Origin: Vibrio alfacsensis
GTDB taxonomy: Bacteria > Pseudomonadota > Gammaproteobacteria > Enterobacterales > Vibrionaceae
NCBI RefSeq assembly: GCF_003544875.1
Contig: NZ_CP032093.1
Coordinates: 2,852,001 to 2,916,000 of the forward strand
DNA: 64,000 nt
Direction of reading: 5' to 3'
The notes under the pieces are model-generated. The model had not been told where the DNA came from. It ran no database searches and was given only the letters and a program-made list of their open reading frames with translations. Below are positions 10,496 through 58,255 of the stretch, piece by piece (the first letter of the stretch is position 1; the number at the start of each line of letters is the position of its first letter). The position numbers and the translations under genes were made by a program.

Positions 10496-10542
10496 AAGGG
10501 TCTAGGTTATTAGGCCTAGATCCTAGGACCTTTCCCTCAAAC
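10496..10542. repeat. CTAG-rich palindromic repeat, copy A
   Basis: A short copy of the intergenic element nine bases after the cytR stop. It has an AAAGGGTCTAGG arm and a CCTAGGACCTTT arm that can form an imperfect stem, with GCCTAGATCCTAGG in the centre. It could act as a cytR transcript end, but there is no clear run of T. Confidence 0.75.
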
Positions 10543-10626
10543 TCACAAGATTATGTGAATAGGGTGTTTTCTCATTGCGTTCTGGATTAACATATTTCGC
10601 AGAATCATCGATGACCTGAAGTAACC

Positions 10627-11169
10627 GTGGCAAATAAAGATTATGTAAGAAGAGGACGCGGCGCTCCGAAGAAAAGCGCGAAGAAACAACCCTCTCGAAA
10701 GAAACCTTGGCGTAGTGGTCTACTTGCTCTTTTGCTCGTGGGCGGCTTTGGCTATGGCCTTTACCTGCTGAACTCAGATCCTGAGCCAGAGCAACCTGTC
10801 GTTCAACAGCAAACCTCCACCAGCAAACCTAAACCTAAAAAAGATCTGCCTCCCCCTCCGGAAGAAAAGTGGGAATACGTCGAGTCTTTGCCGAATCGTG
10901 AAGTAGAAGTCATCGCGAAAGAAGTCGAAGTCTCTAAAATCCCATACGTGATGCAGTGCGGCGCCTACAAAAAGCAAAGCCAAGCAGAAGAGCGCAAACT
11001 GGCTATCGCTTTCCAAGGTATTAGCAGTAACGTCATCAAGAAAGATGGCAGCTCTTGGTATCGTGTGGTACTTGGTCCATACAAATTCAAACGAGATGCT
11101 GAAAAAGATCGCCACAAATTGCAACGCGCGAAAATAGAGCCGTGCGCAATTTGGAAAGAGAATTTTTAA
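10627..11169 (+). CDS. ftsN: Cell division protein FtsN
   Basis: Late division protein that triggers septal peptidoglycan synthesis through FtsA/FtsQLB and FtsWI. It starts at GTG (reads MANKDYVRRGRGAPKK, matching the E. coli cytoplasmic tail). A basic stretch is followed by one membrane segment at about 30-46 (SGLLALLLVGGFGYGLYLL), a proline/glutamate-rich periplasmic linker, and a C-terminal SPOR domain from about residue 107 with the YVMQCGAYKK and SWYRVVLGPY motifs. At 180 residues the linker is shorter than in E. coli (319 residues), as in other vibrios. Confidence 0.95.
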   Translation: MANKDYVRRGRGAPKKSAKKQPSRKKPWRSGLLALLLVGGFGYGLYLLNSDPEPEQPVVQQQTSTSKPKPKKDLPPPPEEKWEYVESLPNREVEVIAKEVEVSKIPYVMQCGAYKKQSQAEERKLAIAFQGISSNVIKKDGSSWYRVVLGPYKFKRDAEKDRHKLQRAKIEPCAIWKENF

Positions 11170-11192
11170 GACAAGATCCTTGGATAATCGGT

Positions 11193-11275
11193 CCTAGATT
11201 TTTAGGTTCTAGTTTTTTAGGGCCTAGAACCTAGGATCCTAGGACCTATCTCGTTTTCCCTAGAACCTTTGTTTT
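11193..11275. repeat. CTAG-rich palindromic repeat, copy B
   Basis: This copy between ftsN and hslV holds four to five CTAG tetramers, including the pair CCTAGGATCCTAGG, with TTTTTAGG spacers on the left and CCTATCTCGTTTTCCCTAG on the right. It ends a few bases before the hslV heat-shock-type promoter. Confidence 0.8.
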
Positions 11276-11281
11276 CGCCCC

Positions 11282-11310
11282 CTTGAATCCCTAAATCCTT
11301 TCCCCCTATA
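11282..11310 (+). promoter_or_regulatory. Sigma-32-type promoter of hslVU
   Basis: CTTGAA (11282-11287) and CCCCTATA (11303-11310) are 15 bases apart, close to the sigma-32 consensus (CTTGAAA, 13-17 bases, CCCCATNT). It lies 39 bases upstream of the hslV GTG. hslVU is a classic heat-shock operon, which supports the call. Confidence 0.75.
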
Positions 11311-11348
11311 CTTAATTAAATCCAAAAGAAATAATTAAGAGGTCGACT

Positions 11349-11900
11349 GTGACTACCATTGTATCTGTACGTCGAAACAACAAAGTTGTCATCGCGGGTG
11401 ATGGCCAAGTATCGCTAGGCAATACCGTTATGAAAGGTAATGCTCGTAAAGTACGTCGCCTATACAACAATCAAGTATTAGCAGGCTTCGCTGGCGGTAC
11501 TGCGGATGCATTTACCCTATTCGAACGCTTTGAAAGTAAGCTGCAAATGCACCAAGGCCACCTAACCAAAGCGGCTGTGGAACTGGCAAAAGACTGGCGC
11601 AGTGATCGCGCACTTCGCAAGCTAGAAGCATTATTAGCGGTAGCCGATGAAACCGCATCTCTTATCATCACAGGTAACGGTGACGTGGTTCAGCCAGAAA
11701 ACGATCTAATCGCTATCGGCTCTGGCGGCGCATACGCACAAGCCGCTGCAACCGCACTATTAGAAAACACAGACCTAGACGCGCGCGAAATCGCAGAAAA
11801 AGCGTTGAACATCGCTGGCGACATCTGTGTATTCACCAACCACAATCACACTGTAGAGGAACTAGAATCTACAGTAGAACTTCCTAAGCCAACGGCTTAA
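11349..11900 (+). CDS. hslV: ATP-dependent protease peptidase subunit HslV (ClpQ)
   Basis: Threonine protease that forms a double hexamer and degrades proteins unfolded by HslU. It has 183 residues and starts at GTG with the ribosome site AAGAGG. After removal of Met the active threonine is residue 2 ([19 protein letters not shown]). [15 protein letters not shown] and the C-terminal sodium-site region match E. coli closely. It lies 29 bases before hslU. Confidence 0.97.
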
Positions 11901-11929
11901 ACGTAATCGTAACGAAGTAAGGAAAAAAT

Positions 11930-13261
11930 ATGTCTGAAATGACTCCTCGCGAAATCGTTCATGAACTGAACCGCCACATTATTGGTCAAGATAAAGCAAA
12001 GCGTTCGGTTGCGATTGCATTGCGTAACCGCTGGCGTCGTATGCAGCTTGAAGAAAGCCTACGTGTCGAAGTAACACCAAAAAACATTCTAATGATTGGT
12101 CCAACTGGTGTAGGTAAAACCGAGATTGCTCGTCGTCTTGCTAAGCTGGCAAACGCACCATTTATTAAAGTAGAAGCAACCAAGTTCACTGAAGTCGGTT
12201 ATGTTGGTAAAGAAGTGGAAACCATCATCCGCGACCTAACCGATGTAGCCGTCAAGATGACGCATCAGCAAGCGATGGAAAAAGTAAAATTCCGCGCTGA
12301 AGAGCAAGCTGAAGAACGTGTTCTTGATGCCCTATTGCCACCAGCGCGTGATGCTTGGGGTCAAACAGAGCAAAAAGAAGACACATCGAACACGCGTCAA
12401 GTCTTCCGTAAGAAACTGCGTGAAGGTCAGCTAGACGATAAAGAAATCGAAATCGATGTGGCTACACCGCAAATGGGCGTGGAGATCATGGCGCCTCCTG
12501 GTATGGAAGAGATGACTAACCAGCTACAAGGCATGTTCCAAAACCTTGCGGGTGACACCAAGAAAAAACGCAAACTGAAAATCAAAGACGCCATGAAAGC
12601 ATTGGCAGAAGAAGAAGCAGCAAAACTGGTTAACCATGAAGAGCTAAAAGAATCTGCGATTTTCAACGTAGAAAACAATGGTATCGTCTTCATCGATGAA
12701 ATCGACAAGATTTGTAAGCGTGGCGAAAGTTCAGGCCCTGACGTTTCTCGTGAAGGTGTTCAGCGTGACCTACTGCCACTTATCGAGGGCAGCACGGTCT
12801 CTACTAAGCACGGCATGGTGAAAACCGACCACATCCTGTTTGTAGCATCGGGCGCATTCCAAGTCGCGAGGCCATCTGATTTGATCCCTGAACTGCAAGG
12901 TCGTCTGCCTATTCGTGTCGAACTTGAAGCGCTCACCAGCAATGACTTCAAACGCATTCTGACTGAGCCTAAGGCGTCTTTAACCGAGCAGTACATCGCG
13001 CTGATGAAAACCGAAAGCGTGGATGTCGAATTCACAGAAGACGGCATCACTCAAATTGCAGAAGCAGCGTGGACAGTAAACGAAACCACAGAAAACATTG
13101 GTGCGCGTCGTCTGCATACGGTGATGGAACGTCTAATGGATGAAATCTCTTACGACGCAACAGAGAAAGCTGGCGAAAAGTTCGTGATTAATGCCGCTTA
13201 CGTGAAAGATCGTCTTGGTGACACCATCGAGAACGAAGACCTAAGTCGCTTTATTCTTTAG
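11930..13261 (+). CDS. hslU: ATP-dependent protease ATPase subunit HslU (ClpY)
   Basis: AAA+ unfoldase partner of HslV. It has 443 residues, the E. coli length. Walker A GPTGVGKT is at 57-64, Walker B FIDEID is near 256, and the intermediate domain lies between. The C-terminal tail DLSRFIL inserts into HslV to activate it. The spacing from hslV and a strong terminator 25 bases downstream define a two-gene operon. Confidence 0.97.
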
Positions 13262-13285
13262 TCGACCATCCGCAAAAATGTTAGA

Positions 13286-13320
13286 AAGCCCAGAATGTCA
13301 CTCGTTCTGGGCTTTTTTTT
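13286..13320 (+). terminator. hslVU terminator
   Basis: An 11-base perfect stem (AAAGCCCAGAA / TTCTGGGCTTT) with a nine-base loop and eight T residues, 25 bases after the hslU stop. Confidence 0.92.
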
Positions 13321-13331
13321 GTCTAAATCAA

Positions 13332-13365
13332 AGATCCTCGATTCCTAGGTCCTAGGGGAAGTTTT
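13332..13365. repeat. CTAG-rich repeat, copy C (left-end fragment)
   Basis: Contains CCTAGGTCCTAGGGG followed by AAGTTTTTGCA. This matches the left end of the larger element copies (pair of CCTAGG, then GGAAGTTTNTGNA) and then stops. It is probably a decayed or 5'-only copy, directly after the hslU terminator. Confidence 0.65.
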
Positions 13366-13541
13366 TGCAATCTTAGTTTGCAATGCTAAACCTCTAAGTT
13401 CTCAACCCCTTTGCTTGCGTTATGCTTTTGTTTTACATGGTTGATTTGCACATCGACTCAAGAGTGAGTTGCTTTAAGTCAATAGCGCATTGGTGACTTT
13501 GTGCTTATACTGGGCACATTGGTTACTAGCACGAAATATCC

Positions 13542-14458
13542 ATGAAACAATCATTGCAAATTTGGCTCGACGCCGCACGCCCGAAAACATTACCTCTCGC
13601 TCTGGTCTCTATTCTCACCGGTAGCGTGCTCGCCTATTCAACCGGGCAATTTTCAATGACCATTGCGATCATGGCATTTGTCACCGCCACCTTATTGCAA
13701 ATCCTATCCAATCTTGCCAATGATTATGGTGACGCGGTCAAAGGCACTGACAACGAAAATCGTTTAGGCCCTCAGCGTGCGATGCAATCTGGCGCGGTAA
13801 CCGCTGAGCAAATGAAAAGAGCGATCATCTTTAATGTTGTGCTGACGATCATTGCTGGCCTTATCTTAGTTTTTACTCACTCAGCTCGTTTGAAAGTATC
13901 ATCACTTTTATCGGTTTGGGCGTACTTGCCATCTTAGCAGCCATCGCTTACACCATGGGCAGCAAACCATATGGCTATGTCGGCTTGGGCGATCTCTCCG
14001 TGTTCCTATTCTTTGGTCTGCTTGGCGTTTCTGGCACTTATTTTCTGCATACCGGTCACGTCGATGCGGCGCTGTTTTTACCTGCACTAGGTTGTGGTTT
14101 ACTGGCGGTTGCCGTTCTTAATATCAACAACATGCGTGATATCGAAAACGACACGGAATGTGGAAAACGCACGGTTGCCGTTCGCCTCGGGCAACGAAAA
14201 GCAAAACAATACCACTTCATTTTGCTTACTGGCGCACTGCTTGCGTTTGCCGCTTACTTATTAATCCAAGATAAACCCGTTTGGATCAGCCTGCCCTTTT
14301 TGCTCAGTATTTATGTTGTCGCGCATCATGGTAAAGCGGTTTGGGAAACCAAAGCTCCTGCACAAATCGCACCAATGATGCCTGTTATTGTGAAATGCTC
14401 ACTGGTAACGAACGTTCTGTTTGCAACAATTGTGGTAGCTCAAACTCTGATAAGTTAA
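13542..14458 (+). pseudogene. menA: 1,4-dihydroxy-2-naphthoate octaprenyltransferase MenA, frameshifted
   Basis: Inner-membrane prenyltransferase that attaches the polyprenyl chain to DHNA in menaquinone synthesis. The first part (to about 13890) holds the aspartate motif NDYGDAVKGTD. The second part, one frame off, resumes with FESIITFIGLGVLAIL and carries the second motif DIENDTECGKRT. Adding one T to the TTT at 13889-13891 restores a protein of about 305 residues, close to E. coli MenA. A one-base sequencing deletion is more likely than true loss, because many genes here show the same kind of error. Confidence 0.9.
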
Positions 14459-14534
14459 ACAAGGAATCTCGTTGCATTGACTTAATGCCTAGATATACTC
14501 AAAGACAACGTTTTCTGTTTAAGAAAGGTACGCC

Positions 14535-15041
14535 ATGGAATACAACACTTCAGCACTTTGCGATATTTACCTCGATCAGGTAGATGTTGTCGAACCGATG
14601 TTCAGTAACTTTGGTGGTCGCGCATCGTTTGCAGGCCAGATCACGACAATAAAATGCTTTGAAGACAATGCATTGATCCGTGAAACTCTCGAACAAGACG
14701 GCATCGGGCGTGTACTGCTGATTGACGGTGGCGGTTCCTTACGTAAAGCGCTAATTGATGCAGAAATTGCAGCGCTAGCCGAAGAAAATGAATGGGAAGG
14801 CATTATTGTTTATGGCTGCGTTCGCGAAGTTGACGTACTCGAAGACATGAACTTAGGCATTCAAGCCCTTGCTTCTATTCCTGTAGGCGCAGCAAGCCAA
14901 GGTATTGGTGAGCATGATGTACCAGTAAACTTTGGCAGCGTCAGCTTCTTGCCGGAAGATTACGTCTACGCCGACAGCACAGGCATTATCCTATCTCCTG
15001 AACCACTGAATGTGGATCTTGAATTGGGTGAAGAAGAATAG
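14535..15041 (+). CDS. rraA: Ribonuclease E activity regulator RraA
   Basis: Trimeric ring protein that binds RNase E and slows mRNA decay. It has 168 residues starting [20 protein letters not shown]. The motif [16 protein letters not shown] and a C-terminal acidic tail (LELGEEE) match the family. It lies 76 bases after menA in the E. coli order menA-rraA. Copy D of the CTAG repeat and a terminator follow. Confidence 0.95.
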
Positions 15042-15044
15042 GAG

Positions 15045-15097
15045 CTTAGGTGTTAGAGCCTAGGCTCCTAGGAACTGTCTTTCCCTAGGACCTTTCT
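15045..15097. repeat. CTAG-rich palindromic repeat, copy D
   Basis: Starts four bases after the rraA stop. It holds GCCTAGGCTCCTAGGAAC and CCCTAGGACC separated by a pyrimidine stretch. It corresponds to the right end of larger copies and lies just before the rraA terminator. Confidence 0.78.
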
Positions 15098-15112
15098 TTT
15101 ACCCAAAAACAC

Positions 15113-15137
15113 AAACACCCGCCGAGGCGGGTGTTTT
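15113..15137. terminator. Bidirectional terminator between rraA and zapB
   Basis: Stem CACCCGC / GCGGGTG with a four-base loop, flanked by AAA and TTTT runs. It can end both the rraA transcript (+) and the zapB transcript (-). Confidence 0.85.
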
Positions 15138-15158
15138 AAATTCTATAGACAGTGTGGA

Positions 15159-15401
15159 TTATTCCACTTCGTCCATTTTGCCAAGTAGTGCACGAATGCG
15201 CTCTTGCCATTGAGCATGCTCTTGTTGAGCGTGTTGAGATTTCTGCTCTAGATCTTCACGCTGAGAGCGAAGCTCATTTGCTTCTGCTTCTAGCTTTACT
15301 TTGTCTTCTTTCAGCTCTTCAACTTCCATCTGAAGAAGAGTGATTGTATCAACTGCAGTTTGAATTTTTGCTTCTAGTTTTTCTAGTACTTCAAAAGACA
15401 T
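15159..15401 (-). CDS. zapB: Cell division protein ZapB
   Basis: Small coiled-coil protein that links the Z-ring (through ZapA) to the chromosome terminus (through MatP). It has 80 residues, starting MSFEVLEKLEAKIQTAVDTI. The rest is one continuous heptad-patterned coiled coil rich in Glu, Lys and Gln, as in E. coli ZapB (81 residues). It converges on rraA and is divergent from glpX. Confidence 0.93.
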   Translation of the reverse strand: MSFEVLEKLEAKIQTAVDTITLLQMEVEELKEDKVKLEAEANELRSQREDLEQKSQHAQQEHAQWQERIRALLGKMDEVE

Positions 15402-15746
15402 CTTGGCCTACCTTTATTGTTCCGTGGGGACGATACACGACAAATCGTCGGCACCTAACCTATAAGATTCATTCTACTCAGCGTAGCGACGAGAAACACT
15501 TACTATATTCGATATTTTGCATCATTCGGTCAAAAAATCAGCGCAATCTCACTAAACTCTGACTTTTCTGAACAGTGAAGTATTTTTGCGCTCTATTTTT
15601 GGCTTCTTCACATTAAAAACTCACCCGATAATTGATCGAATTCAAGTTAGTTAGAGTTAAAGCTCAGCAAAAAGGCAAACGTTTAACTTGCGATGTGGTA
15701 GAATCGCCGCGCAAATTTTTCTTCCCTCTTGTTACTTGGAGACATC
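15402..15746. other. Divergent intergenic region, zapB / glpX
   Basis: About 345 bases without a convincing gene. It must hold the promoters of zapB (-) and glpX (+). A TAGAAT at 15700-15705 could be the glpX -10, but I see no good -35. No repeat element is present. Confidence 0.5.
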
Positions 15747-16754
15747 ATGAAACGCGATTTAGCAATGGCATTTTCCCGTGTTACTGAAGGTGCCGCTCTG
15801 GCTGGCTACAAATGGCTTGGCCGCGGTGACAAAAACGCAGCTGACGGTGCTGCCGTTGAAGTGATGCGAACCCTACTAAACAAAACCGACATTAGCGGTG
15901 AAATCGTTATCGGTGAGGGTGAGATCGATGATGCTCCTATGCTTTTCATTGGTGAGCAAGTGGGTACGGGTGGTGATGCTGTCGATATCGCAGTAGATCC
16001 TATCGAGGGTACTCGCATGACGGCAATGGGCCAATCGAACGCATTAGCGGTGTTGGCGGCCGGTGAAAAAGGCAGCTTCTTGAAAGCGCCAGACATGTAC
16101 ATGGAAAAGTTAGTGGTAGGCCCTGGCGCGAAAGGCGCAATTGACCTCAATAAACCGCTAAAAGAAAACCTAGAAAACGTTGCGAAAGCATTAAACAAAT
16201 CACTTGATACGTTGGTTGTTATCACACTAGCAAAACCTCGTCATGATGACGTGATTGCAGAAATGCAAGCGATGGGTGTACGCGTATTCGCTGTGCCTGA
16301 TGGTGATGTCGCGGCTTCTATTCTAACTTGTATGCCTGACAGCGAAGTAGATTTAATGTACTGCATCGGTGGTGCGCCTGAGGGTGTGGTTTCTGCAGCA
16401 GTCATTCGCGCACTAGATGGTGATATGCATGGCCGACTTCTTCCTCGTCACGAAGTCAAAGGCGATACCGAAGAAAACCGCATTTACGGCACTGCTGAGC
16501 TTAAGCGTTGTGAAGAAATGGGCGTACAAGCGAACATCGTTCTTAAGATGGAAGACATGGCACGCAGCGACAATGTTATCTTCTCCGCGACGGGCATTAC
16601 CAAGGGTGACCTACTTGAGGGGATCACTCGCCAAGGCAACATCGCAACAACAGAAACTCTGCTTATCCGCGGCCGCTGTCGTACTATCCGCCGTATCAAG
16701 TCTACGCACTACCTAGAGCGTAAAGACCCTGAAGTACGCGATATTATTCTTTAA
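15747..16754 (+). CDS. glpX: Fructose-1,6-bisphosphatase, class II (GlpX)
   Basis: Metal-dependent FBPase of gluconeogenesis. The start is the ATG at 15747 (MKRDLAMAFSRVTEG) with the ribosome site TTGGAGAC; it gives 335 residues as in E. coli. Metal and substrate motifs GEGEIDDAP (about 56-64) and DPIEGTRMTA (about 84-93) are present. It stands alone here, without glpFK. Copy E of the repeat begins nine bases after the stop. Confidence 0.95.
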   Translation: MKRDLAMAFSRVTEGAALAGYKWLGRGDKNAADGAAVEVMRTLLNKTDISGEIVIGEGEIDDAPMLFIGEQVGTGGDAVDIAVDPIEGTRMTAMGQSNALAVLAAGEKGSFLKAPDMYMEKLVVGPGAKGAIDLNKPLKENLENVAKALNKSLDTLVVITLAKPRHDDVIAEMQAMGVRVFAVPDGDVAASILTCMPDSEVDLMYCIGGAPEGVVSAAVIRALDGDMHGRLLPRHEVKGDTEENRIYGTAELKRCEEMGVQANIVLKMEDMARSDNVIFSATGITKGDLLEGITRQGNIATTETLLIRGRCRTIRRIKSTHYLERKDPEVRDIIL

Positions 16755-16762
16755 ACAGATAC

Positions 16763-16848
16763 AAAGTTCCTAGGGCCTAGGATCCTAGGAACTTGCCTTT
16801 CTCCTAGGACCTCTCTCTTTTCTCTAGGATCTATCTTTTAAACCTTGT
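16763..16848. repeat. CTAG-rich palindromic repeat, copy E
   Basis: Contains CCTAGGGCCTAGGATCCTAGG, then two further CCTAGGACCT / TCTAGGATCT units spaced by CTTTCT-type pyrimidine tracts. It fills most of the space between glpX and the next gene. Confidence 0.8.
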
Positions 16849-18092: not shown

Positions 18093-18298
18093 CTTAGGCC
18101 ATAGGTTTTTAAGTCCTAGATCCTAGTTGGAGCGCGCTAGACGTTTATACGTTTCAATGAGTTATTGAGAAAGCTGTTGGAATACTGGGCGCTTCGCTTA
18201 CAGAATACAGAAAAGACCACGATTGCGCGTAATCAGTAACCCAAGATTTTAGGCCCTAGGCTCCTAGGACCTGCTTTTTACCTAGGGCCTTTCTTTTC
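18093..18298. repeat. Composite intergenic repeat, copy F
   Basis: A compact copy about 205 bases long. The left end has CCTAGATCCTAG and a GTTTCAATGAGTTATTGAGAAAGCTGT-like stretch. The middle has GGAATACTGGGCGCTTCGCTTACAGAATACAG, then ATTGCGCGTAATC. The right end has GGCCCTAGGCTCCTAGGACC and CTGCTTTTTACCTAGGGCC. It lacks the GTCATTC modules and has almost no heptamer array, so it may be the core form. Confidence 0.85.
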
Positions 18299-18302
18299 CT
18301 TA

Positions 18303-18725: not shown

Positions 18726-18807
18726 CGACTTTTATCCAAAAACCAGAATGGGTATAGAGTAACGAAGAGCACAATAAAGGGCAAAGAAAAGGAATGAAAA
18801 AAGGTTG

Positions 18808-19316
18808 TAAGTCCTAGGGAGAGCTTGTTGGGCGTTCGGAGCGCATCAATAAGTTGTTGAGAAATTGATTGGAATACCGAATACGGAGCGCTTCGCTTAT
18901 GGAATACGGGAAAGCACGCATCAAGCTATCATATCATGCCAGCGAGACTAGGAATCTTACATAAACAAACCGTTGGCTCAAATTCGCACCTCCAACCAAC
19001 GATCTCTCTGTTAGTAGATTCTGAATCACGTTCGTTCCTCACTGTTAAGAATGACAGGATTTGTCTTCCAACCGGAAACAACGTTTGCGCGTAATTCGTA
19101 ATTCGTAATTCGTAATTCGTAATTCGTAATTCGTAATTCGTAATTCGTAATTCGTAATTCGTAATTCGTAATTCGTAATTCGTAATTCGTAATTCGTAAT
19201 TCGTAATTCGTAATCCGTAATCCGTAATCCGTAATCCGTAATCCGTAATCCAAAACATTAGGCCCTAGAACCTAGGATCTGTATTTTAAACCTAGAACCT
19301 ATCTTTTAAACCTCTA
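18808..19316. repeat. Composite intergenic repeat, copy G (full length)
   Basis: About 510 bases. In order: left CTAG end and TTGTTGGGCG stretch; GAATACCGAATACGGAGCGCTTCGCTTATGGAATACGG; a degenerate CATGCCAGCGAGACTAGGAATCT module; its inverted partner GTAGATTCTGAATCACGTTCG...GAATGAC; ACGTTTGCGC; a 23-unit heptamer array; CAAAACATTAGGCCCTAGAACCTAGG; and a right CTAG/pyrimidine end. It lies between the DUF805 gene (-) and the isomerase gene (-). Confidence 0.88.
19091..19251. repeat. Heptanucleotide array, 23 units
   Basis: Exactly 161 bases: 17 units of GTAATTC followed by six units of GTAATCC, with no interruption. The abrupt switch between the variants suggests separate expansion events. 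Read as protein on the minus strand it gives repeats of ITNYELR, which I take as fortuitous. Confidence 0.97.
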
Positions 19317-20774: not shown

Positions 20775-20789
20775 TTTTTGAAAAAGATT

Positions 20790-20935
20790 ATAGGTTTTAG
20801 GGCCTAGATCCTAGGTGGCGTGTACTGGAAGTTTTTGCATTTCATTAGTTCTTGAGAAAGCTGTCAGAATACTGAATACGGAGCGCTTCGCTTACAGAAT
20901 ACGGGAAAAGCAAGGACCTAGGTTTTAGGCCCCTA
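20790..20935. repeat. Composite intergenic repeat, copy H (left half)
   Basis: Starts with GGGCCTAGATCCTAGGTGG, then GTACTGGAAGTTTTTGCATTTC, GTTCTTGAGAAAGCTGTC, GAATACTGAATACGGAGCGC, TTCGCTTACAGAATACGGG and AAAGCA. It then runs straight into a second left end (copy I). It is thus a truncated copy joined in tandem to a full one. Confidence 0.85.
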
Positions 20936-21312
20936 GATCCTAGGTGGTGTACGCTAGAAGTTTGTGCACTTCATTAGTTCTTGAGAAAGCTGTTGGAATA
21001 CAGAATACAGAATACAGAATACAGAATACAGAAAGCTAACGATTGCGCGTAATCCGTAATCCGTAATCCGTAATCCGTAATCCGTAATCCGTAATCCGTA
21101 ATCCGTAATCCGTAATCCGTAATCCGTAATCCGTAATCCGTAATCCGTAATCCGTAATCCGTAATCCGTAATCCGTAATCCGTAATCCGTAATCCGTAAT
21201 CCGTAATCCGTAATCCGTAATCCGTAATCCGTAATCCGTAATCCGTAATCCGTAATCCGTAATCCAAAACATTAGGTCCTAGGCCCTAGGATCCTAAGAC
21301 CTATATCTTTCC
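20918..21312. repeat. Composite intergenic repeat, copy I
   Basis: Begins GGACCTAGGTTTTAGGCCCC and TAGATCCTAGGTGGTGTACG, repeats the left half seen in copy H, and has five GAATACA units (20996-21030). It passes through AACGATTGCGC to a 31-unit GTAATCC array and ends with CAAAACATTAGGTCCTAGGC and further CTAG units. The GTCATTC modules are missing. It lies between tpiA (+) and uge (-), at their 3' ends. Confidence 0.88.
21049..21265. repeat. Heptanucleotide array, 31 units of GTAATCC
   Basis: 217 bases, exactly 31 perfect copies of GTAATCC, the longest array in the window. It is a strong candidate for length variation by slippage. The minus-strand reading (ITDYGLR repeats) has no ribosome site and is probably not translated. 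Confidence 0.98.
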
Positions 21313-21323
21313 CTAAGCCCCAT

Positions 21324-23563: not shown

Positions 23564-23621
23564 GGGTGAATCCTTAAGTTCAACTTTTACAAAAGCATAG
23601 CAGAATCAAGAATACTGAACT

Positions 23622-24032
23622 AGATCTTAGGCTTTAGATTTTGGGTACTAGGGGAAGTTAGGTCCTAGGGTCCTAGGGTCCTAGGGTCCTAGGGTCCTAG
23701 AAAGAGTTTGTTGGACGTTCTGGGTATTTCAATGATCTTTGAGGAAGTTAATTTGAATACTGAATACCGAATACCGAAAAGCACATCATCACCAATTGTG
23801 TCATTCCAGCGAGCCTTAGCGAGACTAGGAATCTACTACCCACACGCAATTTAATCTCAAATTATCACCTTAACTCTTTCAAAAGCGGCCAGTAGATTTT
23901 GAATCACATTCGTCCCTCACTGTTCAGAATGACAAGTATTCTTCTTATAATTCAAGAGCAAAGTTTGTTCATAATCCAAAACATTAGGATCCTAGGACCT
24001 GCTTTTTACCTAGGCCCTTTCTTTTATCCCCC
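23622..24032. repeat. Composite intergenic repeat, copy J (full length)
   Basis: Fills the divergent space between ugd and rjg. It holds five perfect 8-base units GGTCCTAG (23661-23700), then the TTGTTGGACGTTCTGGG stretch and GAATACTGAATACCGAATACC. The module GTCATTCCAGCGAGCCTTAG (from about 23801) follows, with its inverted partner AGTAGATTTTGAATCACATT...GAATGAC (to about 23934). The right end is CCAAAACATTAGGATCCTAG and CTGCTTTTTACCTAGG. The heptamer array is reduced to about one unit (CATAATCC). Confidence 0.88.
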
Positions 24033-25469: not shown

Positions 25470-25812
25470 TTAGGTTTTTAGAGTCCTAGGTCCTAGGTCC
25501 TAGAGGGAGTTTGTTGGTCACTCTGTGTATTTCTATGGCTTTTTGAGGAAGTTATTTGAATACAGGACGCTTCGAATACAGAATACAGAAAAGCACATCA
25601 TCACCAACTGTGTCATTCCAGGGAGCCTTGGCGAGACTAGGAATCTATTACCCGCACGCCTTTTGTCTCAGTTCGTAGCCTTAACGCTTTCAAACTCGGC
25701 TCGTAGATTCTGAATCACGTTCGTGCCTCACTGTCCAGAATAACGGCTATTTTAGCGCCTCCTTAAATATGAGGAGGGGCGTCATTCCAACGAGCCTTGA
25801 CGAGATTAGGAA
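25470..25812. repeat. Composite intergenic repeat, copy K
   Basis: Begins eight bases after the rjg stop. It has three GTCCTAG heptamers (25483-25503), TTGTTGGTCACTC, GAATACAGGACGCTTCGAATAC, the module GTCATTCCAGGGAGCCTTGG, and its inverted partner CGTAGATTCTGAATCACGTT. A second GTCATTCCAACGAGCCTTGA module follows at about 25780. The right CTAG end and the heptamer array are missing, so the copy is truncated or rearranged. Confidence 0.82.
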
Positions 25813-25894
25813 TCTTATAACCACAAGCCCGGAAAGTGACTGTTTCCACCTTAGAGAACGTATACATATTGCAATATGTTTATGGCGATTGATG

Positions 25895-26218
25895 TTATTT
25901 AAGTTTTATTCCATGCGTTTCGATGTGGGCAAGTAGTTCAGTTGATGTGATTTTGTGCTTTACCACCAAATCCACTGTAAATGGCAGTGAAGACTGCTCT
26001 AAACGATCTTGTAAACCTGCGAGTACGCTTAACGAAATATCCCTGCCCTCAAGGGCGATATCAATGTCAGAGTTATCTTTAAAGGTTCCTAACGCTCTAG
26101 AGCCAAATACCCAAGCACGGGTGACTAAGTCATGATTGAGCACAATATCTTTAATCAATTGATATTGGTGAGTCTTAAGGCCAATCAACGTTGGGTCAAC
26201 AAGACAACCGTTATCCAC
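25895..26218 (-). CDS. mntA: MntA-type nucleotidyltransferase antitoxin
   Basis: The protein has 107 residues with the minimal nucleotidyltransferase motif GSRALGTFKDNSDID, an exact GSX10DXD fit. MntA proteins adenylylate their partner HepT on the tyrosine of its RX4HXY motif and thereby silence the toxin. The start overlaps the hepT end by eight bases. It lies outside the polysaccharide terminator, between rjg and the operon end. The alternative name is HI0073-like protein. Confidence 0.88.
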   Translation of the reverse strand: MDNGCLVDPTLIGLKTHQYQLIKDIVLNHDLVTRAWVFGSRALGTFKDNSDIDIALEGRDISLSVLAGLQDRLEQSSLPFTVDLVVKHKITSTELLAHIETHGIKLK

Positions 26219-26618
26219 GCTTCACCTCTAGATATTGCGTGATCTGCTCAATCACTGGGGAAAATGACTCAAGGATCAACGCTTGGGCTTCTAGAACATT
26301 TTCTTCATCATACGTATGCGATAATAAATTACGTTTGATCAACGCTTCTAGCATAGTTTCACATTGCTCTGAGGAGATATGCTTGGCCTCTAATGCAGTA
26401 CGAAACACACTACGTGGTGAGGCGACATCAAAGCCTTCAAACTCAAGTAAGTCCTTTAATGTTTTCCATGTAAGCTCAAAGGAAAACTCAAACGTTTGAA
26501 CCAGACCTGCAAGTTCCAACTCGTTATAGCTCTCTTGATTACACGCTCTTTTGAGCCTTTGTTGGGCTTTAATTAAGTTCTGTAGCCGTTGCTTCCAGCG
26601 TTCTGGGTTTGCGTTCAT
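26211..26618 (-). CDS. hepT: HepT-type RNase toxin (HI0074 family)
   Basis: The protein has 135 residues and is all helical, resembling the nucleotidyltransferase-substrate-binding fold (FEFSFELTWKTLKDLLEFEG, about residues 49-68). It carries RNLLSHTY near residues 94-101, an exact match to the catalytic RX4HXY motif of HepT toxins (HEPN superfamily). It pairs with the overlapping mntA gene. RNase activity is inferred from the motif. Confidence 0.87.
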   Translation of the reverse strand: MNANPERWKQRLQNLIKAQQRLKRACNQESYNELELAGLVQTFEFSFELTWKTLKDLLEFEGFDVASPRSVFRTALEAKHISSEQCETMLEALIKRNLLSHTYDEENVLEAQALILESFSPVIEQITQYLEVKRG

Positions 26619-48879: not shown

Positions 48880-48925
48880 TGGATTAATTAGGTCCTAGGA
48901 TCCTAGGGGCTAGGATCGAAAAAAA

Positions 48926-48981
48926 TGATTACGGATTACGGATTACGGATTACGGATTACGGATTACGGATTACGGATTAC
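48926..48981. repeat. Heptanucleotide array, eight units of GGATTAC
   Basis: One TGATTAC unit followed by seven perfect GGATTAC units (the complement of GTAATCC). It supplies the last codons (Arg-Asn-Pro) and the stop of the S23-type gene. Confidence 0.96.
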
Positions 48982-49354
48982 GGACATCGTACTCTGCAGC
49001 ATCTTCATTTAAACGGTTTCTCTTTGTTTTACTCAACCGTCCAAGAGTCGCTGCGATGGATTCAGCCTCTTGAATGAGACCCAAACCGGACGCTTTCTCG
49101 ATGTATCCAACTTCAATGCCGATATAGACTTGAGTAATGAACTCTGCCGTTGACGACTTTGCAATATTTAAAAACCGAATTTGGTCTTTAATTGATTCCC
49201 GTTCTTCTCCCTCAGCAATATTCGATGGGATTGATAATCCAGAACGGGTGATTTGATCTTTAAAACCAAAGTCTCGGCATGTTTCCATCATCTTGTATAT
49301 ATCACAAGACAGTCGGCAAGCTTGTTGCCATACTCTAAGTTGCTTAAACCTCAA
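48971..49354 (-). CDS. Four-helix-bundle protein (S23 / 23S rRNA intervening-sequence protein family)
   Basis: The protein has 127 residues with the family pattern: MRFKQLRVWQQACRLSCDIY, FGFKDQITRSGLSIPSNIAE, GEERESIKDQIRFLNIAKSS and VGYIEKASGL. The start is TTG with AAGGA six bases upstream. The last three residues and the TAA stop come from a heptamer array. Relatives occur inside intervening sequences of 23S rRNA genes and, more distantly, as Avd of diversity-generating retroelements; a molecular function is not established. It is enclosed by arrays of the composite repeat and looks like cargo. Confidence 0.85.
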   Translation of the reverse strand: MRFKQLRVWQQACRLSCDIYKMMETCRDFGFKDQITRSGLSIPSNIAEGEERESIKDQIRFLNIAKSSTAEFITQVYIGIEVGYIEKASGLGLIQEAESIAATLGRLSKTKRNRLNEDAAEYDVRNP

Positions 49355-49378
49355 CAGATATCCTTATCTAAAGGTTGC

Positions 49379-49441
49379 AGAATACGGAATACGGAATACG
49401 GAATACGGAATACGGAATACGGAATACGGAATACGGAATAC
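49379..49441. repeat. Heptanucleotide array, nine units of GGAATAC
   Basis: One AGAATAC unit and eight perfect GGAATAC units. It lies 24 bases upstream of the S23-type gene start. GGAATAC differs from GGATTAC at one position. Confidence 0.96.
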
Positions 49442-49741
49442 GGAATTTTATGATTTCGATATTCCAAATCTACATTTCTGTAATCTGTCAGCGAAGCACT
49501 CGGTATTCCTACTTAACTGAGTACCCACTGTAAGTAGATTCCTAGTCTCGCTTTGCTCGCTGGAATGACGTGCAAGAGCCTGTATTCCGTAAGCGAAGCG
49601 TTCTGTATTCATACTTAACTAAGTACTCGCTGCAAGCTGATTCCTAGTCTCGCTTCTGCTCGCTGGAATGACGTTTAAAATCCCGTATTCCAAAAATTCT
49701 AGGCCCTAGAACCTGTGTTTTCCTAGGACCTTTCTTTTCCG

Positions 49742-52981: not shown

Positions 52982-53062
52982 GAAATTATCCCTTGGGTAT
53001 CGACTGAACTATAATAGAGAAGACGCGTTCAGTGATTATTTGTTAACTTTCTTGTGCGTTCC

Positions 53063-53103
53063 CACGCTACCGCCCGGCGGCATTACGCGTTAGCCACTGT
53101 TCG
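53063..53103 (-). promoter_or_regulatory. JUMPstart sequence with perfect ops element (RfaH recruitment)
   Basis: On the minus strand GGCGGTAGCGTG (53074-53063) is an exact ops element, 82 bases upstream of the first gene. The preceding bases (AACAGTGGCTAACGCG, GTAATGCCGCCG) follow the layout of JUMPstart. In enterobacteria RfaH loads here on a paused polymerase and prevents premature termination in long polysaccharide operons. The several hairpins within the 26-kb operon make such control sensible. Confidence 0.92.
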
Positions 53104-53299
53104 CTGGTTACCGATTAGTCGGTTTATTTTGAATATGTTTTATTAAGCCTAAATTTGATGACTCGATTCAAAAAACGGAACGAATAGAGTCAAAAAATTT
53201 GGCAAATTATGCATGGATTGACGCAAAACGGCAAGAGGCGGCTGATTTGAATTGTGTGAATGTGCGGTAAAACGCGCAGTTTTTGGGCGGAAGAAAATG

Positions 53300-53602
53300 T
53301 GAGGTTCTAGGTTATAGGGTCCTAGGTCCTAGGTCCTAGGTCCTAGGGGAGTTTGTTGGGACTTTAGTGTACCTCAATGACTATTTATGTACGTTGTTGA
53401 ATACGGAATACTTGAATAAAGGGCCTAGGTTTTAGGGCCTAGGTCCTAGGTGGTGTATGCTGGAAGTTTGTGGATTTCATTAGTTCTTGAGAAAGTATTT
53501 TTACACTGCATAAAACGTTTGTGCGTAATCCGTAATCCAAAACCTTAGGCCCTAGAACCTAGGACCTGCTTTTTACCTAGGACCTATCTCTTTTACCCTA
53601 CG
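53300..53602. repeat. Composite intergenic repeat, copy M (two in tandem)
   Basis: First part: GGTTCTAGGTTATAGG, four GTCCTAG heptamers (53319-53346), GGGGAGTTTGTTGGGAC and GAATACGGAATAC. Second part from about 53421: GGGCCTAGGTTTTAGGGCCT, AGGTCCTAGGTGGTGTATGC, TCATTAGTTCTTGAGAAAGT, then TTGTGCGTAATCCGTAATCC (two units), CAAAACCTTAGGCCCTAGAA and the right end. It lies between the JUMPstart region and the gfcA-like gene. Confidence 0.85.
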
Positions 53603-53746
53603 CCCTGCTTCTACCTTAGCGCTTTCTTTGGTCCCTTTTTCATACGAAACTATTTACATGCTGGTTGTTTTAACTAAAATGTTACGTGATGCACCTAAAA
53701 TGCATCAAACATCGATGTTTTAAAATTAGAAATACAAGGATTAATA

Positions 53747-53974
53747 ATGAAGAATACAGCTCTAGCTATTCTTATGGCGCTAAGCGCATCTACTGCATTT
53801 GCAGCAACTGAAGCTGGCACTACAGGTACAGCAGCAGCATCTGCAACAGGTACCACTGCAGTAGCAGTAGGCGCAGCAGCAGCAGTAACAGTAGTTGCAG
53901 TCGCAGCATCTGATAGCGATTCATCAACTACTTCAAACTCTGGTTCTGGTTCTGGTTCTGCACCTCAAAACTAA
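53747..53974 (+). CDS. Small Ala/Thr/Ser-rich secreted protein (GfcA-like)
   Basis: The protein has 75 residues. A signal peptide (MKNTALAILMALSASTAFAA) leads to a Thr/Ala-rich segment and a hydrophobic stretch (VAVGAAAAVTVVAVAA), ending in Ser/Gly repeats (SGSGSGSAPQN). The composition and the position before GfcB/GfcC/YjbH-type genes match the small GfcA/YmcD-like first gene of group 4 capsule operons. The ribosome site is AAGGA. Function unknown. Confidence 0.75.
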   Translation: MKNTALAILMALSASTAFAATEAGTTGTAAASATGTTAVAVGAAAAVTVVAVAASDSDSSTTSNSGSGSGSAPQN

Positions 53975-53998
53975 TCACTAGTAGTTAGATATAAGCTC

Positions 53999-54030
53999 AT
54001 CGCCCTGACTGATTCAGGGCGATTTTATTT
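53999..54030 (+). terminator. Hairpin between gfcA-like and gfcB-like genes
   Basis: Stem ATCGCCCTGA / TCAGGGCGAT with a five-base loop and TTTATTT. It probably reduces read-through, giving more transcript of the small first gene than of the following ones. Confidence 0.75.
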
Positions 54031-54043
54031 GTATGAGGGAATA

Positions 54044-54718
54044 ATGAATCATTTTCTACCACGCTCATGGATGCGTCTGCTCGTCGCCTTGCCCGTATTA
54101 AGCCTTGCTGTTGGTTGTACTCAAAAATTCAACGATGTTTCCGCGACAGTACAAGAAGCTTACAACAACTATGTGGATGTTGAATTAACAGCCGAAGAAA
54201 TCGATGCGGTACCTTACGCGAGCGCTTATTTAAAAATCGGCAACCAAAAACAAGTGTTTGTTGTATTAGCCTTTGCTGAACACAACCCTATTACGGGTAA
54301 TACTCAACTAAAATGGGTGAGTGCAGATAAAGCAATGGTCGTAACAGAAAACGGACACATCGTAAAAACAATTGGTTTGCAACACAATAATCTCGCGGGT
54401 GCGCATGGTGATGTGCCTAGTTTTGCCTTAGAAAATACAGAGTACTCTCTTTCTTACGATTGGGCCAAGCAGTACCGTTATGGTTTTCCTGCTCATGTGA
54501 AGCGCGTATATCAAGGCAAAGAGTCCGTCATTACGCCGCTCTCTAACTCCCCAGCAGATATCTATCGTGAAACGGTTCATTTTTCCACTCTGTCACAAAG
54601 TGTGGATAACTTTTACTGGGTTGACGCTAATGGCAAGGTCATTAAAACCGTTCAGTATTTAGGCCCGAATATGGTGCCGATTGAACTCACTATTTTGAAA
54701 GGGTACAGCAAATCATGA
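54044..54718 (+). CDS. YjbF/GfcB-family outer-membrane lipoprotein
   Basis: The start at 54044 (MNHFLPRSWMRLLVALPVLS) gives a lipoprotein signal with lipobox LAVGC (Cys about residue 25) and 224 residues. TAEEIDAVPYASAYLKIGN and YPF-like tail YLGPNMVPIELTILKGY match the YjbF family. It overlaps the next gene by four bases. It acts with GfcC- and YjbH-type proteins in polysaccharide secretion. Confidence 0.83.
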   Translation: MNHFLPRSWMRLLVALPVLSLAVGCTQKFNDVSATVQEAYNNYVDVELTAEEIDAVPYASAYLKIGNQKQVFVVLAFAEHNPITGNTQLKWVSADKAMVVTENGHIVKTIGLQHNNLAGAHGDVPSFALENTEYSLSYDWAKQYRYGFPAHVKRVYQGKESVITPLSNSPADIYRETVHFSTLSQSVDNFYWVDANGKVIKTVQYLGPNMVPIELTILKGYSKS

Positions 54719-55479
54719 ATTACCGACGTTCTGCCCTAATAAGCGGCCTATTATTTGCCGTTACTAGCTTAACTCCTGTGTCTGCTCAACCATCAGTCAA
54801 TACAGCCCCATCACTTCAAATAAAGTTGATAGGTATCGATAAACAGTTGCAGTCCGACCAAGGGTTGCGCCTGGCAGATGCACTCAAGCTTGCGCAGCAG
54901 CAGCGAATGGTTCTGCAATACCCGTTGGGTACTACCCTGTTTGATGAATCTGATGATGCGCTGCAAAACTCAATGGCACTGAAAAACTCTGTGCTCAACC
55001 AGATGATGCAACACAACTTAGTTTCTCACCCTTTGTATAAATTCATCCAAAAACAGCAATTTGCACCGCGCGTACTTTCTGGTATTGATGTAGACCAAGT
55101 GCGCCTAGATAAATTCGATAACCCGCTGCTTAACGGTAAATTTTCGTTAGCCTCTTCACCTCGAGATTCTCATGTAGTGTATCTAGGTAACGTCGAAAAA
55201 ATATGGCAAATCCGCTCACAAGCGGGAATTCCTCTGCACACGCAAATTGACCACCTAAACACAACCATCGGTGACTTGAGCCAATCTCCTGTTGTTATCT
55301 ATCCTGACGGAAGTGTGGTAAATCCTCACCATGGCTCTTGGCTCAATACACAATATTATCTGCCACCACTCACTATGGTTTACATTCCGTTTGCACCTTT
55401 TTCAGAATCTCAAATGGATCAGGATATTGTAAAACTACTCACTCAACTTAAGCCAATGCATTCGAAGACGCCACTATGA
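54715..55479 (+). CDS. GfcC/YjbG-family capsule biosynthesis protein
   Basis: The protein has 254 residues and a signal peptide (ISGLLFAVTSLTPVSAQ), so it is periplasmic. The GfcC domain shows LNGKFSLASSPRDSHVVYLG and VVNPHHGSWLNTQYYLPPLT near the C-terminus. GfcC contains a domain like part of Wza and is thought to assist export. It overlaps both neighbours by four bases, forming a tight operon. Confidence 0.83.
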   Translation: MNYRRSALISGLLFAVTSLTPVSAQPSVNTAPSLQIKLIGIDKQLQSDQGLRLADALKLAQQQRMVLQYPLGTTLFDESDDALQNSMALKNSVLNQMMQHNLVSHPLYKFIQKQQFAPRVLSGIDVDQVRLDKFDNPLLNGKFSLASSPRDSHVVYLGNVEKIWQIRSQAGIPLHTQIDHLNTTIGDLSQSPVVIYPDGSVVNPHHGSWLNTQYYLPPLTMVYIPFAPFSESQMDQDIVKLLTQLKPMHSKTPL

Positions 55480-57685
55480 AGCTAATTAAAACCAGTTTAA
55501 CCCTTTCCTTAATGGGTCCGGCATTCGTTTGGGCTCAAGAGATACCTTTTGAAGCGCCACCTCTACAGCCATCACAAATGGACTTTGGTGGCGTAGGCTT
55601 AATGCAAATGCCGACTGGACGTATGTCCCCAGAAGGTGAATTTAACTTTGCAATAACAAGTAGTAATGAGTACTTTTTTTACAATGTCACTCTACAAGTC
55701 ATGCCTTGGCTAGAAACAACGTTACGCTATACCATCGTTCACGACGTCCTTTACAGTGACCAACCAAGTTTTTCTGGTGACAGTGATTACACCGACAAAG
55801 GCATCGACTTTAAAATTCGTCTATTAGAAGAATCTGAATACTTACCTGAGTTATCTGTTGGTATTCGTGATTTTGCGGGCACTGGTTTATTTGATGCCGA
55901 ATTTATTGCAGCCACCAAACGTTACTCAAACCCAAACTTAGGTACATTTGATTTTACGCTTGGTATGGGCTGGGGTTACTTAGGTACGCGAGACAACATT
56001 ACCAACCCGGCTTGTAAAGTATCCGACAAATACTGTGAACGCCCATCAGACTTTAAAAACAATGGCGGTAGTGTAGACTTTGAGCGCATGTTTAAAGGCC
56101 CTGCTGCATTGTTTGGTGGTATTGAATATCAAACGTTACATGCCCCTCTTCGCTTTAAACTGGAATACGACAGTAATGATTACAGCGAAGATTTCCCAGT
56201 CAACTCCCCTTGGGCAAAAACGAAAGTAGACATGACACCGCACACACCTTGGAACATTGGTGTGCTGTACCGCTTAGGCCACATGGCAGATTTACGCGTG
56301 AGTTATGAGCGTGGGGATACTTTAGTTGCCGGTGTAAACCTTTATACCAACTTTAATGATATGCCATCATTCTGGCGAGATACTCCGACACCAGAGCTAG
56401 AAGAAAAACAACCAGAACAACTGTCGGATGTGGATTGGCAGCGTGTCACTGAAGATCTCGACAAAATTGCTGGCTATGAGAACACGCAAGTATTTGCAAA
56501 CGAGAACACCGTATCCATTGTTGGTGAGCAAAAGAAATATCGTGACCGCAATGAAGCGCACGAGAAAGCGGCGGCCGTACTCTACAACCAAGTACCGGAA
56601 AGCATCGACACGTTTACGATCAACGAACGTACTCGTGGTTTAATCGGTGATCAAACGGTTATTTCTAAAGATAAATATCAAGATGTTGCTCAAGTAAACT
56701 ATATTGAGCCAAAATTGAGGATGCTGTTTCTACATCAAGTCAAAAACCTGTTGGCGAAGCAACTTACGATGGGTTTGAACGTTTTGATTGGGGCTTTGCA
56801 CCAAAATTGGCTCAAACACTTGGCAACCCAGAAGAATTCTATTTATTCAGTGTTGGTTTAAGTGGCAGTGCTTCTTACTGGTTGACCGATAACCTAGAGA
56901 TCGGCGGTTCACTCTACTGGGATTGGTACAATAATTACGATAAGTTTAATTACGTCACCCCACCCGATGGCACAACGATCCCTCGCGTTCGTACCATGTT
57001 CCGTGCATACCAAAATGAACATGCGGTTACGATGTCTAACTTGCAGTTAACTTGGTTCCAAGAATACTCAGACACGATGGACCAACAATTTTATGCTGGC
57101 TACTTAGAAAGTATGTTTGCTGGTATCGGTACTGAGTTTTTGTATCGTCCACAAGGAGCAAACTGGGCCATAGGTGCAGATGTTAACCTCATTTCTCAGC
57201 GTGACCCACAAAGCTACTTCGGCGTTTATGATGAGAAATGGCAGTATGTCCCTGAGTACGGTCGCCCATTCCAAGTGGTCGACAAAGGCTTTACTGGTTT
57301 TGTTTCTGGTTATTACTACCCTCAATGGACGTTTTTGTCTGATCTGATGGTTCAAGTTGACGTAGGCCAGTTCCTAGGCGGAGATGTCGGTACTCAAGTC
57401 AATGTTTCTAAACAATTTAAGAGCGGTGTTATTGCCGGTGCGTTTGCCTCAATTTCCGACTTGTCTGCTGATGAATTTGGCGAGGGTAGCTTTACCAAAG
57501 GGTTCTATATTTCGATTCCATTCGACATCATGACCGTTAAGCCAAGTAATAACCGTGCTAACTTCTCTTGGCAGCCACTAACTCGCGATGGCGGCCAAAA
57601 ACTAGGGCGAAAATACAGCTTAATTGAGCTAACCGATGAGCGTAATCCTTGGTTCCAGAGACCAAATCACTCGGAAGTAAAATAA
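55476..57685 (+). pseudogene. YjbH/GfcD-family outer-membrane protein, frameshifted
   Basis: Large YjbH-type beta-barrel protein with signal peptide (LSLMGPAFVWAQ). GVGLMQMPTGRMSPEGEFNF is the N-terminal signature, and RDNITNPACKV lies mid-protein. The frame is lost at AAAA 56711-56714; one more A gives PKIEDAVSTSSQKPVGEATY and continues to DERNPWFQRPNHSEVK, 736 residues. YjbH-type proteins probably form the outer-membrane pore of a capsule export system with YjbF/YjbG partners. Confidence 0.87.
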
Positions 57686-57689
57686 GATC

Positions 57690-57718
57690 AATTAGGGGCT
57701 TCGGCTCCTTTTGTTTTT
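57690..57718 (+). terminator. Terminator after the YjbH-type gene
   Basis: Stem GGGGC / GCTCC with a TTCG tetraloop, followed by TTTTGTTTTT, directly after the stop. Confidence 0.7.
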
Positions 57719-57719
57719 A

Positions 57720-58255
57720 AAGGGCCTAGATTTTAGGGCATAGATCCTAGATGGCGCGTGCTGGAAGTTTGTGGATTTCATTAGCTTTTGAGAAAGTGGT
57801 TGGAATCCTGAATACGGAGCGCTTCGCTTACAGAATACAGAAAAGCACGCGTCAAGCTATCGTGTCATTCCAGCGAGCCATAGCGAGACTAGGGATCTAT
57901 TACCAGCATACTGGTTCATTTCGATTTATCACCTTAGTGAAATCACTCTCTTTCAGTAGATTCTGAATCACATTCGTCCCTCACTGTTCACAATAATGAA
58001 TATTTTCCTTATCACTCAAAAACAACGATTGCGTGTAATCCGTAATCCGTAATCCGTAATCCGTAATCCGTAATCCGTAATCCGTAATCCGTAATCCGTA
58101 ATCCGTAATCCGTAATCCGTAATCCGTAATCCGTAATCCGTAATCCGTAATCCGTAATCCGTAATCCGTAATCCAAAAGCTTAGGCCCTAGGAGCCTAGG
58201 ACCTTGTTTTTCTCTAGGACCTATCTCTTCTGCTTTTTACCTAGAAACTTGTTTT
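57720..58255. repeat. Composite intergenic repeat, copy N (full length)
   Basis: The most complete copy. In order: GGGCCTAGATTTTAGGGC and TAGATCCTAGATGGCGCGTG; GGAAGTTTGTGGATTTCATT; GAATACGGAGCGCTTCGCTT and ACAGAATACAGAAAAGCACG; GTCATTCCAGCGAGCCATAG...AGGGATCTATTACC; CAGTAGATTCTGAATCACAT...AATAATGA; AACGATTGCGTG; a 20-unit GTAATCC array; CAAAAGCTTAGGCCCTAGGA; right CTAG/pyrimidine end with TGCTTTTTACCTAG. It lies between the YjbH-type gene and hldD. Confidence 0.9.
58035..58174. repeat. Heptanucleotide array, 20 units of GTAATCC
   Basis: 140 bases, exactly 20 perfect copies of GTAATCC inside repeat copy N. Confidence 0.97.

Follow-up and report, generated by a model that had tools for sequence, protein, structure and literature searches.

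What kind of element is repeated between the genes around the capsule locus of Vibrio alfacsensis? In a 64,000-nt stretch of NZ_CP032093.1 (hereafter the window, whose positions are used as coordinates throughout), an initial annotation covering the pieces from 10,496 to 58,255 had noticed clusters of the palindrome CCTAGG at no fewer than 14 intergenic sites. It described them as copies of one composite repeat, recognised no described family in it and left terminator, nuclease-processing and mobile roles open. The answer that we favour, with moderate confidence, is that these CTAG repeats are a family of short elements multiplied locally, kin of the elements of intervening sequence (IVS) type that carry a gene of the PF05635 (S23p, or S23) family, and not ordinary terminators.

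A repeat family with a 7-base period

The hexamer CCTAGG occurs 50 times in the window versus 6.80 expected (standard deviation 2.72; maximum of 100 shuffles, 14), and its clusters were found at the places where they had been reported. The copies, lettered A to O (Table 1), were alike well beyond CTAG: alignment and a nearest-neighbour comparison both spoke against units related in their core only, with a mean column identity of 70% over nine left parts and an identity of 63% over ten right ends. Copy C consists of a left end only, copy K lacks the right end and copy L is mixed and partly inverted. Two pairs, H/I and M/N, stand in tandem. All nine left parts lie on the plus strand, despite the varying strand of the adjoining genes. 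An orientation set by the replication strand was also considered and found no support; a remote copy at 1.19 Mb shares the strand, which is a single case.

The most striking regularity of the family is not the palindrome alone, it is a period of 7 bases (words CCTAGGT, GAATACG and GTAATCC). Among the 30 rows listed by Tandem Repeats Finder (TRF) between 9 and 60 kb, 12 had a period of 7 or 8, and all 12 fell inside elements. Their words were GGTCCTAG, GTCCTAG, AGGTCCT, TAGGACC, GAATACA/C/G, CGTAATC/T, GTAATCC and GATTACG, that is, tandem words of mostly seven and sometimes eight bases. The outer words are of CCTAGGT type and the inner ones of GGAATAC/GGATTAC type; in full copies the two are separated by a module of about 64 bp. 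The premise that CTAG is usually rare did not hold here, as observed counts were close to the expected ones across the 79 named loci used for orthologous comparison.

An S23 gene in copy L and arrays around its relatives

One of the approximately 14 sites, copy L, harbours a PF05635 gene that had been missed by the initial annotation. Solved relatives of its protein are 2gsc and 2rld, and the neighbouring genes encode a polysaccharide-export protein and a Wzz protein. Copy L lies between wbfF and wzz and not inside a 23S ribosomal RNA (rRNA) gene; an Rfam search of the whole window at gathering scores returned the L31 leader only, and no rRNA. Since copy L is outside 23S rRNA, it would work like an IVS without being filed as a 23S IVS.

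PF05635 is present in 39 of 148 Vibrio genomes. In 11 of the 30 Vibrio loci fetched the gene stands between homologues of the export and Wzz genes, and other loci adjoin CysD-, BirA- or RadC-type genes. An array of period 5–9 was detected by TRF at 25 of the 30 loci, versus 69 of 397 control windows of approximately equal length; the loci contained 33 arrays of period 7 and nine of period 8, and the control windows 18 of period 7. The words beside the S23 genes varied (CTAG-type, ACAGGACC, AAGGTTC, AGCGAGT, ACTCGCC and others). At locus L097 (genome G105), the S23 gene is placed between longer CTAG-containing repeats in place of short arrays.

At distances of up to 10 kb from 20 Vibrio S23 genes, a further 47 period-7 arrays were counted in 376 kb, versus 18 in about 1310 kb of controls. 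At the 14 of these 20 loci with a gene-adjacent period-7 array, 21 of the 34 further arrays had the same word (at least 6 of 7 bases), where shuffling gave 4.1 and at most 15. Outside Vibrio, the word was shared by 13 of 27 further arrays (shuffled 1.7, maximum 11). Clouds of gene-less arrays with one local word recur around S23 genes. The words of copy L, GATTACG and GAATACG, are also those of the gene-less copies when either strand is read. Given the recurring clouds, the CTAG/GAATACG/GTAATCC cloud in the window seems to be an example of this pattern.

Inverted heptamer arms outside Vibrio

Searches by phylum and class gave 58 PF05635 loci outside Vibrio, 51 with an array of period 6–9 and 47 with one of period 7. 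For the comparison of arms, nine of the 88 PF05635 loci were dropped because no open reading frame (ORF) was recognised by motif. An ORF was recognised at 51 non-Vibrio loci; 39 of them reached the required array score, and 33 remained once orthologous sites had been removed. In Vibrio, 14 of 28 were usable. In the 33 loci, the left unit agreed with the reverse complement of the right unit at a mean of 5.94 of 7 bases, and at 6 or more in 24 of them. Shuffled partners gave a mean of 3.87 (maximum 4.45 in 1000) and direct orientation 3.42. A stop triplet was contained in the left unit at 23 and in the right unit at seven of these loci, about 31% being expected. On viral contigs, 18 of 28 PF05635 loci had a period-7/8 array at most 330 bp away, and the arms of all 12 comparable loci, near duplicates included, were reverse-complementary at 6 or more of 7 bases. 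The small proteins of PF13366, kept as a control family, had a period-7 array at none of 28 loci and a period-8 array at three; they had been considered as a second cargo, an idea that was dismissed. In addition, at 20 loci chosen by hand, most with clear arrays, 37 period-7 arrays lay in the 19.2 kb beside the gene versus 27 in the other 372.6 kb. The PF05635 matches of genome G796 were weak (34 bits or less) and the five fetched had no S23-like ORF by pattern; they enter no count. In RNA folds, calculated without a shuffled control, the left and right arrays of a 23S element and of six other elements from outside Vibrio paired over 24 to 47 nt.

According to crude ORF calls, both flanking ORFs were co-directional with the S23 gene at 29 of 47 loci outside Vibrio and at 15 of 28 Vibrio loci, and both were opposed to it at six of the latter. 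Sites identified by Pfam include the gap between nuoC and nuoD (30- and 49-kDa subunits of NADH dehydrogenase), a position before ruvC, a gap between dehydratase and nucleotidyl transferase genes and a gap between two epimerase-type genes. Genome G330 has two S23 copies within 23S rRNA, one of them checked by Rfam. The nuoC-nuoD site was followed through 61 genomes of the genus of G198: an insert of about 475 bp was found in 14, and the flanks were at most 10 bp apart in 39; the remainder comprised four larger gaps, one site split across contigs and three weak or missing matches. At the filled sites displayed, the array begins at the first gene's stop codon; no target duplication was seen by eye. 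The array word varies by lineage at this identical site. Purifying selection acts on the S23 ORF of these inserts, with a median ratio of non-synonymous to synonymous substitution (dN/dS) of 0.066 over 25 usable pairs (nine of 13 ORFs recognised). By analogy of layout, the design of the S23 element may be regarded as that of the 23S rRNA IVS, where complementary arms enclose a short ORF at a transcribed site.

Local clustering and turnover of the copies

Genome-wide (4.91 Mb), 15 of the 20 BLAST matches of copy O fell in the window, as did 12 of the 15 matches of a right-end model (E value 1e-3) and 44 of the 62 CCTAGN{1,4}CCTAG doublets, the reversed control pattern giving 28. The other clear places were on C1 at 0.77, 1.19 and 2.94 Mb, the last with three doublets; the copies at 0.77 and 1.19 Mb sit between convergent ORFs. 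Copy O matched no plasmid record. The profile search of Vibrio genomes that the initial annotation had proposed was run with the right-end model, which was trained on window copies and favours close kin, but no position, and the family was detected in 28 of 148 genomes. In nine of them (five contigs or fewer, at least five matches), 32 of 53 distinct sites among the matches listed, which reach E values near 8e-5, lay within 60 kb of gmhD, 1.3 being expected; without the genome of the window, 22 of 41 sites among the matches listed did so. Far from the capsule locus, locus L035 of genome G131 contains 61 CTAG in 500 bp (6438-6939) and a six-fold tandem array of CTAG modules (13674-14364).

Comparison of orthologous gaps, also proposed there, revealed sites that are filled or empty by species: a gap that is long and rich in CTAG in one species may be short in another. 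At DUF805 the gap measures 598 bp in the window; Vibrio sp. PID17_43 has 429 bp with a matching element and V. mytili 1689 bp, and in 70 of 78 measured loci the gap does not exceed 111 bp. The module of about 64 bp was collected in 69 copies from six genomes, 35 of them from V. mytili (66 of 132 automatic modules were retained by hand and three window copies were added). Its closest relative belonged to the same genome in 61 of 68 cases, versus a mean of 21 and a maximum of 37 after label shuffling; the copies are homogenised within genomes. In V. mytili this module is inverted at both element ends.

Rearrangements were also observed. At L152 and at L034 (G131), the zapB-glpX segment, which is bounded by the sites of copies D and E, is inverted compared with the window; the glpX-rraA junction in G131 has no CTAG. 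In V. mytili (L104/L051), tpiA, the 19324 gene and DUF805 are rearranged, with CTAG elements at the junctions. These breakpoints are consistent with recombination at the elements and are not decisive. At L101, L102, L103, L110 and L115 the DUF3135-DUF805 gap contains a different insert, whose ORF looks by eye to be of GIY-YIG type; it carries GTCATTCT...AGAATGAC repeats, and similar modules are nested in full CTAG copies.

Origin of the repeats

If the CTAG repeats are kin of the S23 element, an S23-bearing copy could have spread over short distances by copying of a recombination type together with slippage of its arrays. In the transcript of an S23 element the arms would fold into a stem cleavable by RNase III, as in the 23S IVS, which would make an insertion between cistrons tolerable. 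Gene-less copies may persist as nearly neutral passengers and may provide substrates for deletion and inversion of the surrounding DNA. Several observations weigh against this explanation. No arm-specific complementarity was detected over 488 CTAG clusters, coding ones included, and for the 175 clusters with at least three CTAG the observed sum was below the shuffled mean; among eight gene-less window copies, end pairing exceeded the shuffled-arm mean in seven and the maximum in two. A co-transcribed stem is hard to reconcile with J and M/N, which are flanked by diverging genes. Vibrio arms have a common word, with equal inverted and direct similarity (4.79 of 7 bases for both, n=14), and no 64-bp module was noticed in copy L. 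Six of the 20 Vibrio S23 loci have no gene-adjacent period-7 array, and two genomes supply ten of the 13 word-sharing satellites found outside Vibrio. Finally, genomes G010, G043, G091 and G110 are CTAG-rich without a PF05635 match, so that a resident S23 gene is unnecessary for persistence. For the gene-less copies, the weak stem evidence and the divergent gaps make passengers or recombination substrates the better reading.

A wider proposal is tentative and we hold it as doubtful: PF05635 proteins and private inverted heptamer arrays would form one element class, in which the protein helps to make or copy 7-base arrays, seeds gene-less clouds around its own gene and builds complementary arms anew wherever the element sits; the CTAG repeats of Vibrio and the 23S IVSs would be two special cases.

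That the repeats are bidirectional terminators or 3'-end hairpins with CTAG stems, copied around the region, is in our opinion unlikely. The simple copies at cytR, ftsN and glpX do occupy positions at which relatives have terminator-like hairpins, the ftsN form of V. jasicida having a stem, a loop and a T-rich tail (both by eye); the remote copies lie between convergent ORFs, and a pattern scan for terminators found CTAG stems at some copies. However, J and M/N are in divergent gaps, hslU and tpiA retain separate terminator-like hairpins, the ends of copy D were not paired in its fold, the 488 clusters gave no complementarity signal and arrays of up to 220 bp would be useless to a terminator. 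Of the roles initially left open, that of terminator can fit only a few simple copies, and mobility or local copying is supported by the filled and empty sites and by homogenisation. The same presence and absence at orthologous gaps would be produced by a non-autonomous transposon (miniature inverted-repeat transposable element, MITE) moved in trans by a transposase recognising the CTAG-rich ends, and the roughly inverted ends and inverted module copies of V. mytili recall such elements. We nevertheless give this a low probability: instead of constant terminal inverted repeats the ends are variable CTAG arrays whose words differ between genomes, and at the single nuoC-nuoD site the word differs with no visible target duplication.

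Clustering near gmhD in several species suggests another possibility, namely that the repeats were selected for raising recombination at the capsule/lipopolysaccharide locus, like neisserial arrays near surface genes. The deletion model for wzb of V. vulnificus, as given in the portion of PMC7247339 consulted, is in its favour, and so are changes of gene order by inversion in V. mytili and in V. sagamiensis/G131, whose end points correspond to element-bearing sites of the window. Selection of this kind is improbable all the same, because other Vibrio satellites surround S23 near CysD-, BirA- and RadC-type genes and not a capsule operon, and because of the CTAG-free junction in G131; moreover, elements occupy about eight of 13 gaps in V. 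mytili, so that three breakpoints at elements are unsurprising. If the entire region had been acquired once from a donor rich in repeats, with the repeats as passengers, their near confinement to one region would be explained. We regard this as very improbable, since clusters of their own, with modules specific to the genome, are present in several species. Local multiplication of an S23-related element is the explanation retained here.

Features of the window

The positions of the copies and of other features are collected in Table 1.

Table 1. Copies of the CTAG repeat and other features of the window, with their arrays and the analyses that support them.
Feature	Position	Strand	Location	Arrays and remarks
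Copy A, simple	10491..10536	+	3' of cytR	
Copy B, simple	11190..11283	+	3' of ftsN	Right-end alignment, model match
Copy C, left end only	13343..13400	+	3' of hslU	
Copy D, simple	15039..15102	+	3' of rraA	Right-end alignment, model match
Copy E, simple	16764..16841	+	3' of glpX	Right-end alignment, model match
Copy F, full	18096..18301	+	DUF3135-DUF805 gap	Left and right alignments
Copy G, full	18806..19313	+	DUF805-19324 gap	CGTAATT x22.9 (19090-19249); left alignment, TRF
Copies H and I, tandem	20785..21316	+	3' of tpiA	GAATACA x5.4 (20996-21033), CGTAATC x31.1 (21048-21265); left alignment, TRF
Copy J, full	23619..24030	+	Divergent gap before rjg	GGTCCTAG x5 (23661-23700); left alignment, TRF
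Copy K, left part and GTCATTC modules, without right CTAG end	25474..25830	+	3' of rjg	Left alignment
Copy L, gene-bearing	48892..49741	-	wbfF-wzz gap	GATTACG x8.3 (48927-48984), GAATACG x9.6 (49380-49446); TRF
S23p ORF, 127 aa	48971..49354	-	Copy L	PF05635 23S_rRNA_IVP / TIGR02436 four helix bundle protein
Copies M and N, tandem	53302..53600	+	Divergent gap upstream of gfcA-like gene	Left/right alignments, TRF
Copy O, full	57719..58262	+	yjbH-gmhD gap	GTAATCC x20 (58035-58174); left alignment, TRF
L31-Gammaproteobacteria ribosomal protein leader	6786..6836	-		Rfam RF03157
Two small ORFs, possible toxin-antitoxin-like pair	25895..26618	-	Beside copy K	Nucleotidyltransferase (Polbeta; MntA_antitoxin model below cut-off) and NTase_sub_bind/HI0074
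YjbH	55476..57685	+		Two overlapping ORFs in different frames, the first spanning only 1-368 of the 658 positions in PF06082

Comparison with known systems

Cyanobacteria have heptamers of their own, the short tandemly repeated repetitive (STRR) sequences. The TAACTGA heptamers of Beggiatoaceae, Cyanobacteria and Bacteroidetes resemble the arrays described here in being intergenic and tandem but, in the portion of PMC4679880 consulted, they are of a single word, direct and mostly located before start codons; the terms 's23' and 'four helix' have no occurrence in its text. Neisserial dRS3/RS mosaics are likewise intergenic and near surface-antigen genes, and the GTCATTC...GAATGAC modules recall dRS3, which is a resemblance only. 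The parts of PMC3898611 consulted describe neither heptamers nor an S23 gene in these mosaics, and their dRS3 pattern is ATTCCC(N8)GGGAAT.

In searches of the open-licence literature, no account was found of the Vibrio CTAG family as a whole, nor of PF05635 genes outside rRNA that are flanked by inverted heptamer arms. The lack of a described family stands in that sense, but not for its parts, as CTAG-type and ACAGGACC repeats are in print for V. vulnificus. According to the sections of PMC7247339 consulted, [A/C]CTAG[G/A]A[A/C] and ACAGGACC repeats flank wzb in the capsule operon, and recombination between them is the likely source of some acapsular variants. CTAG words and a capsule operon are common to both cases, and the octamers also stand beside S23 genes at L085 and L087. 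However, in those sections the repeats are reported only at wza-wzb-wzc, whereas the family in the window extends over 48 kb and also occupies gaps at housekeeping genes; here CTAG words flank S23 between export genes, the words are CCTAGGT and no wzb adjoins. If the S23 relationship is true, it would provide a sequence basis for recombination-prone repeats at Vibrio capsule loci.

The closest layout is that of the 23S IVS of Coxiella. In the passages of PMC4990558 consulted, this IVS of about 430 nt is excised by RNase III at a stem of its complementary ends, two to three tandem copies of the heptamer GACAGAT precede the S23p ORF, and a solved S23p relative is a pentameric ring. An S23p ORF and tandem heptamers are shared with the S23 elements described here, and complementary ends with those outside Vibrio; the 23S copies of G330 have the same layout. 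The difference is that neither copy L nor the operon elements lie in rRNA, and that most window copies are gene-less with arms that are not clearly inverted. The role of 23S rRNA IVSs and of 'four helix bundle' proteins is unsettled, and a shared design, if true, would unite rRNA IVSs, operon insertions and the capsule-region repeats of Vibrio into one testable class.

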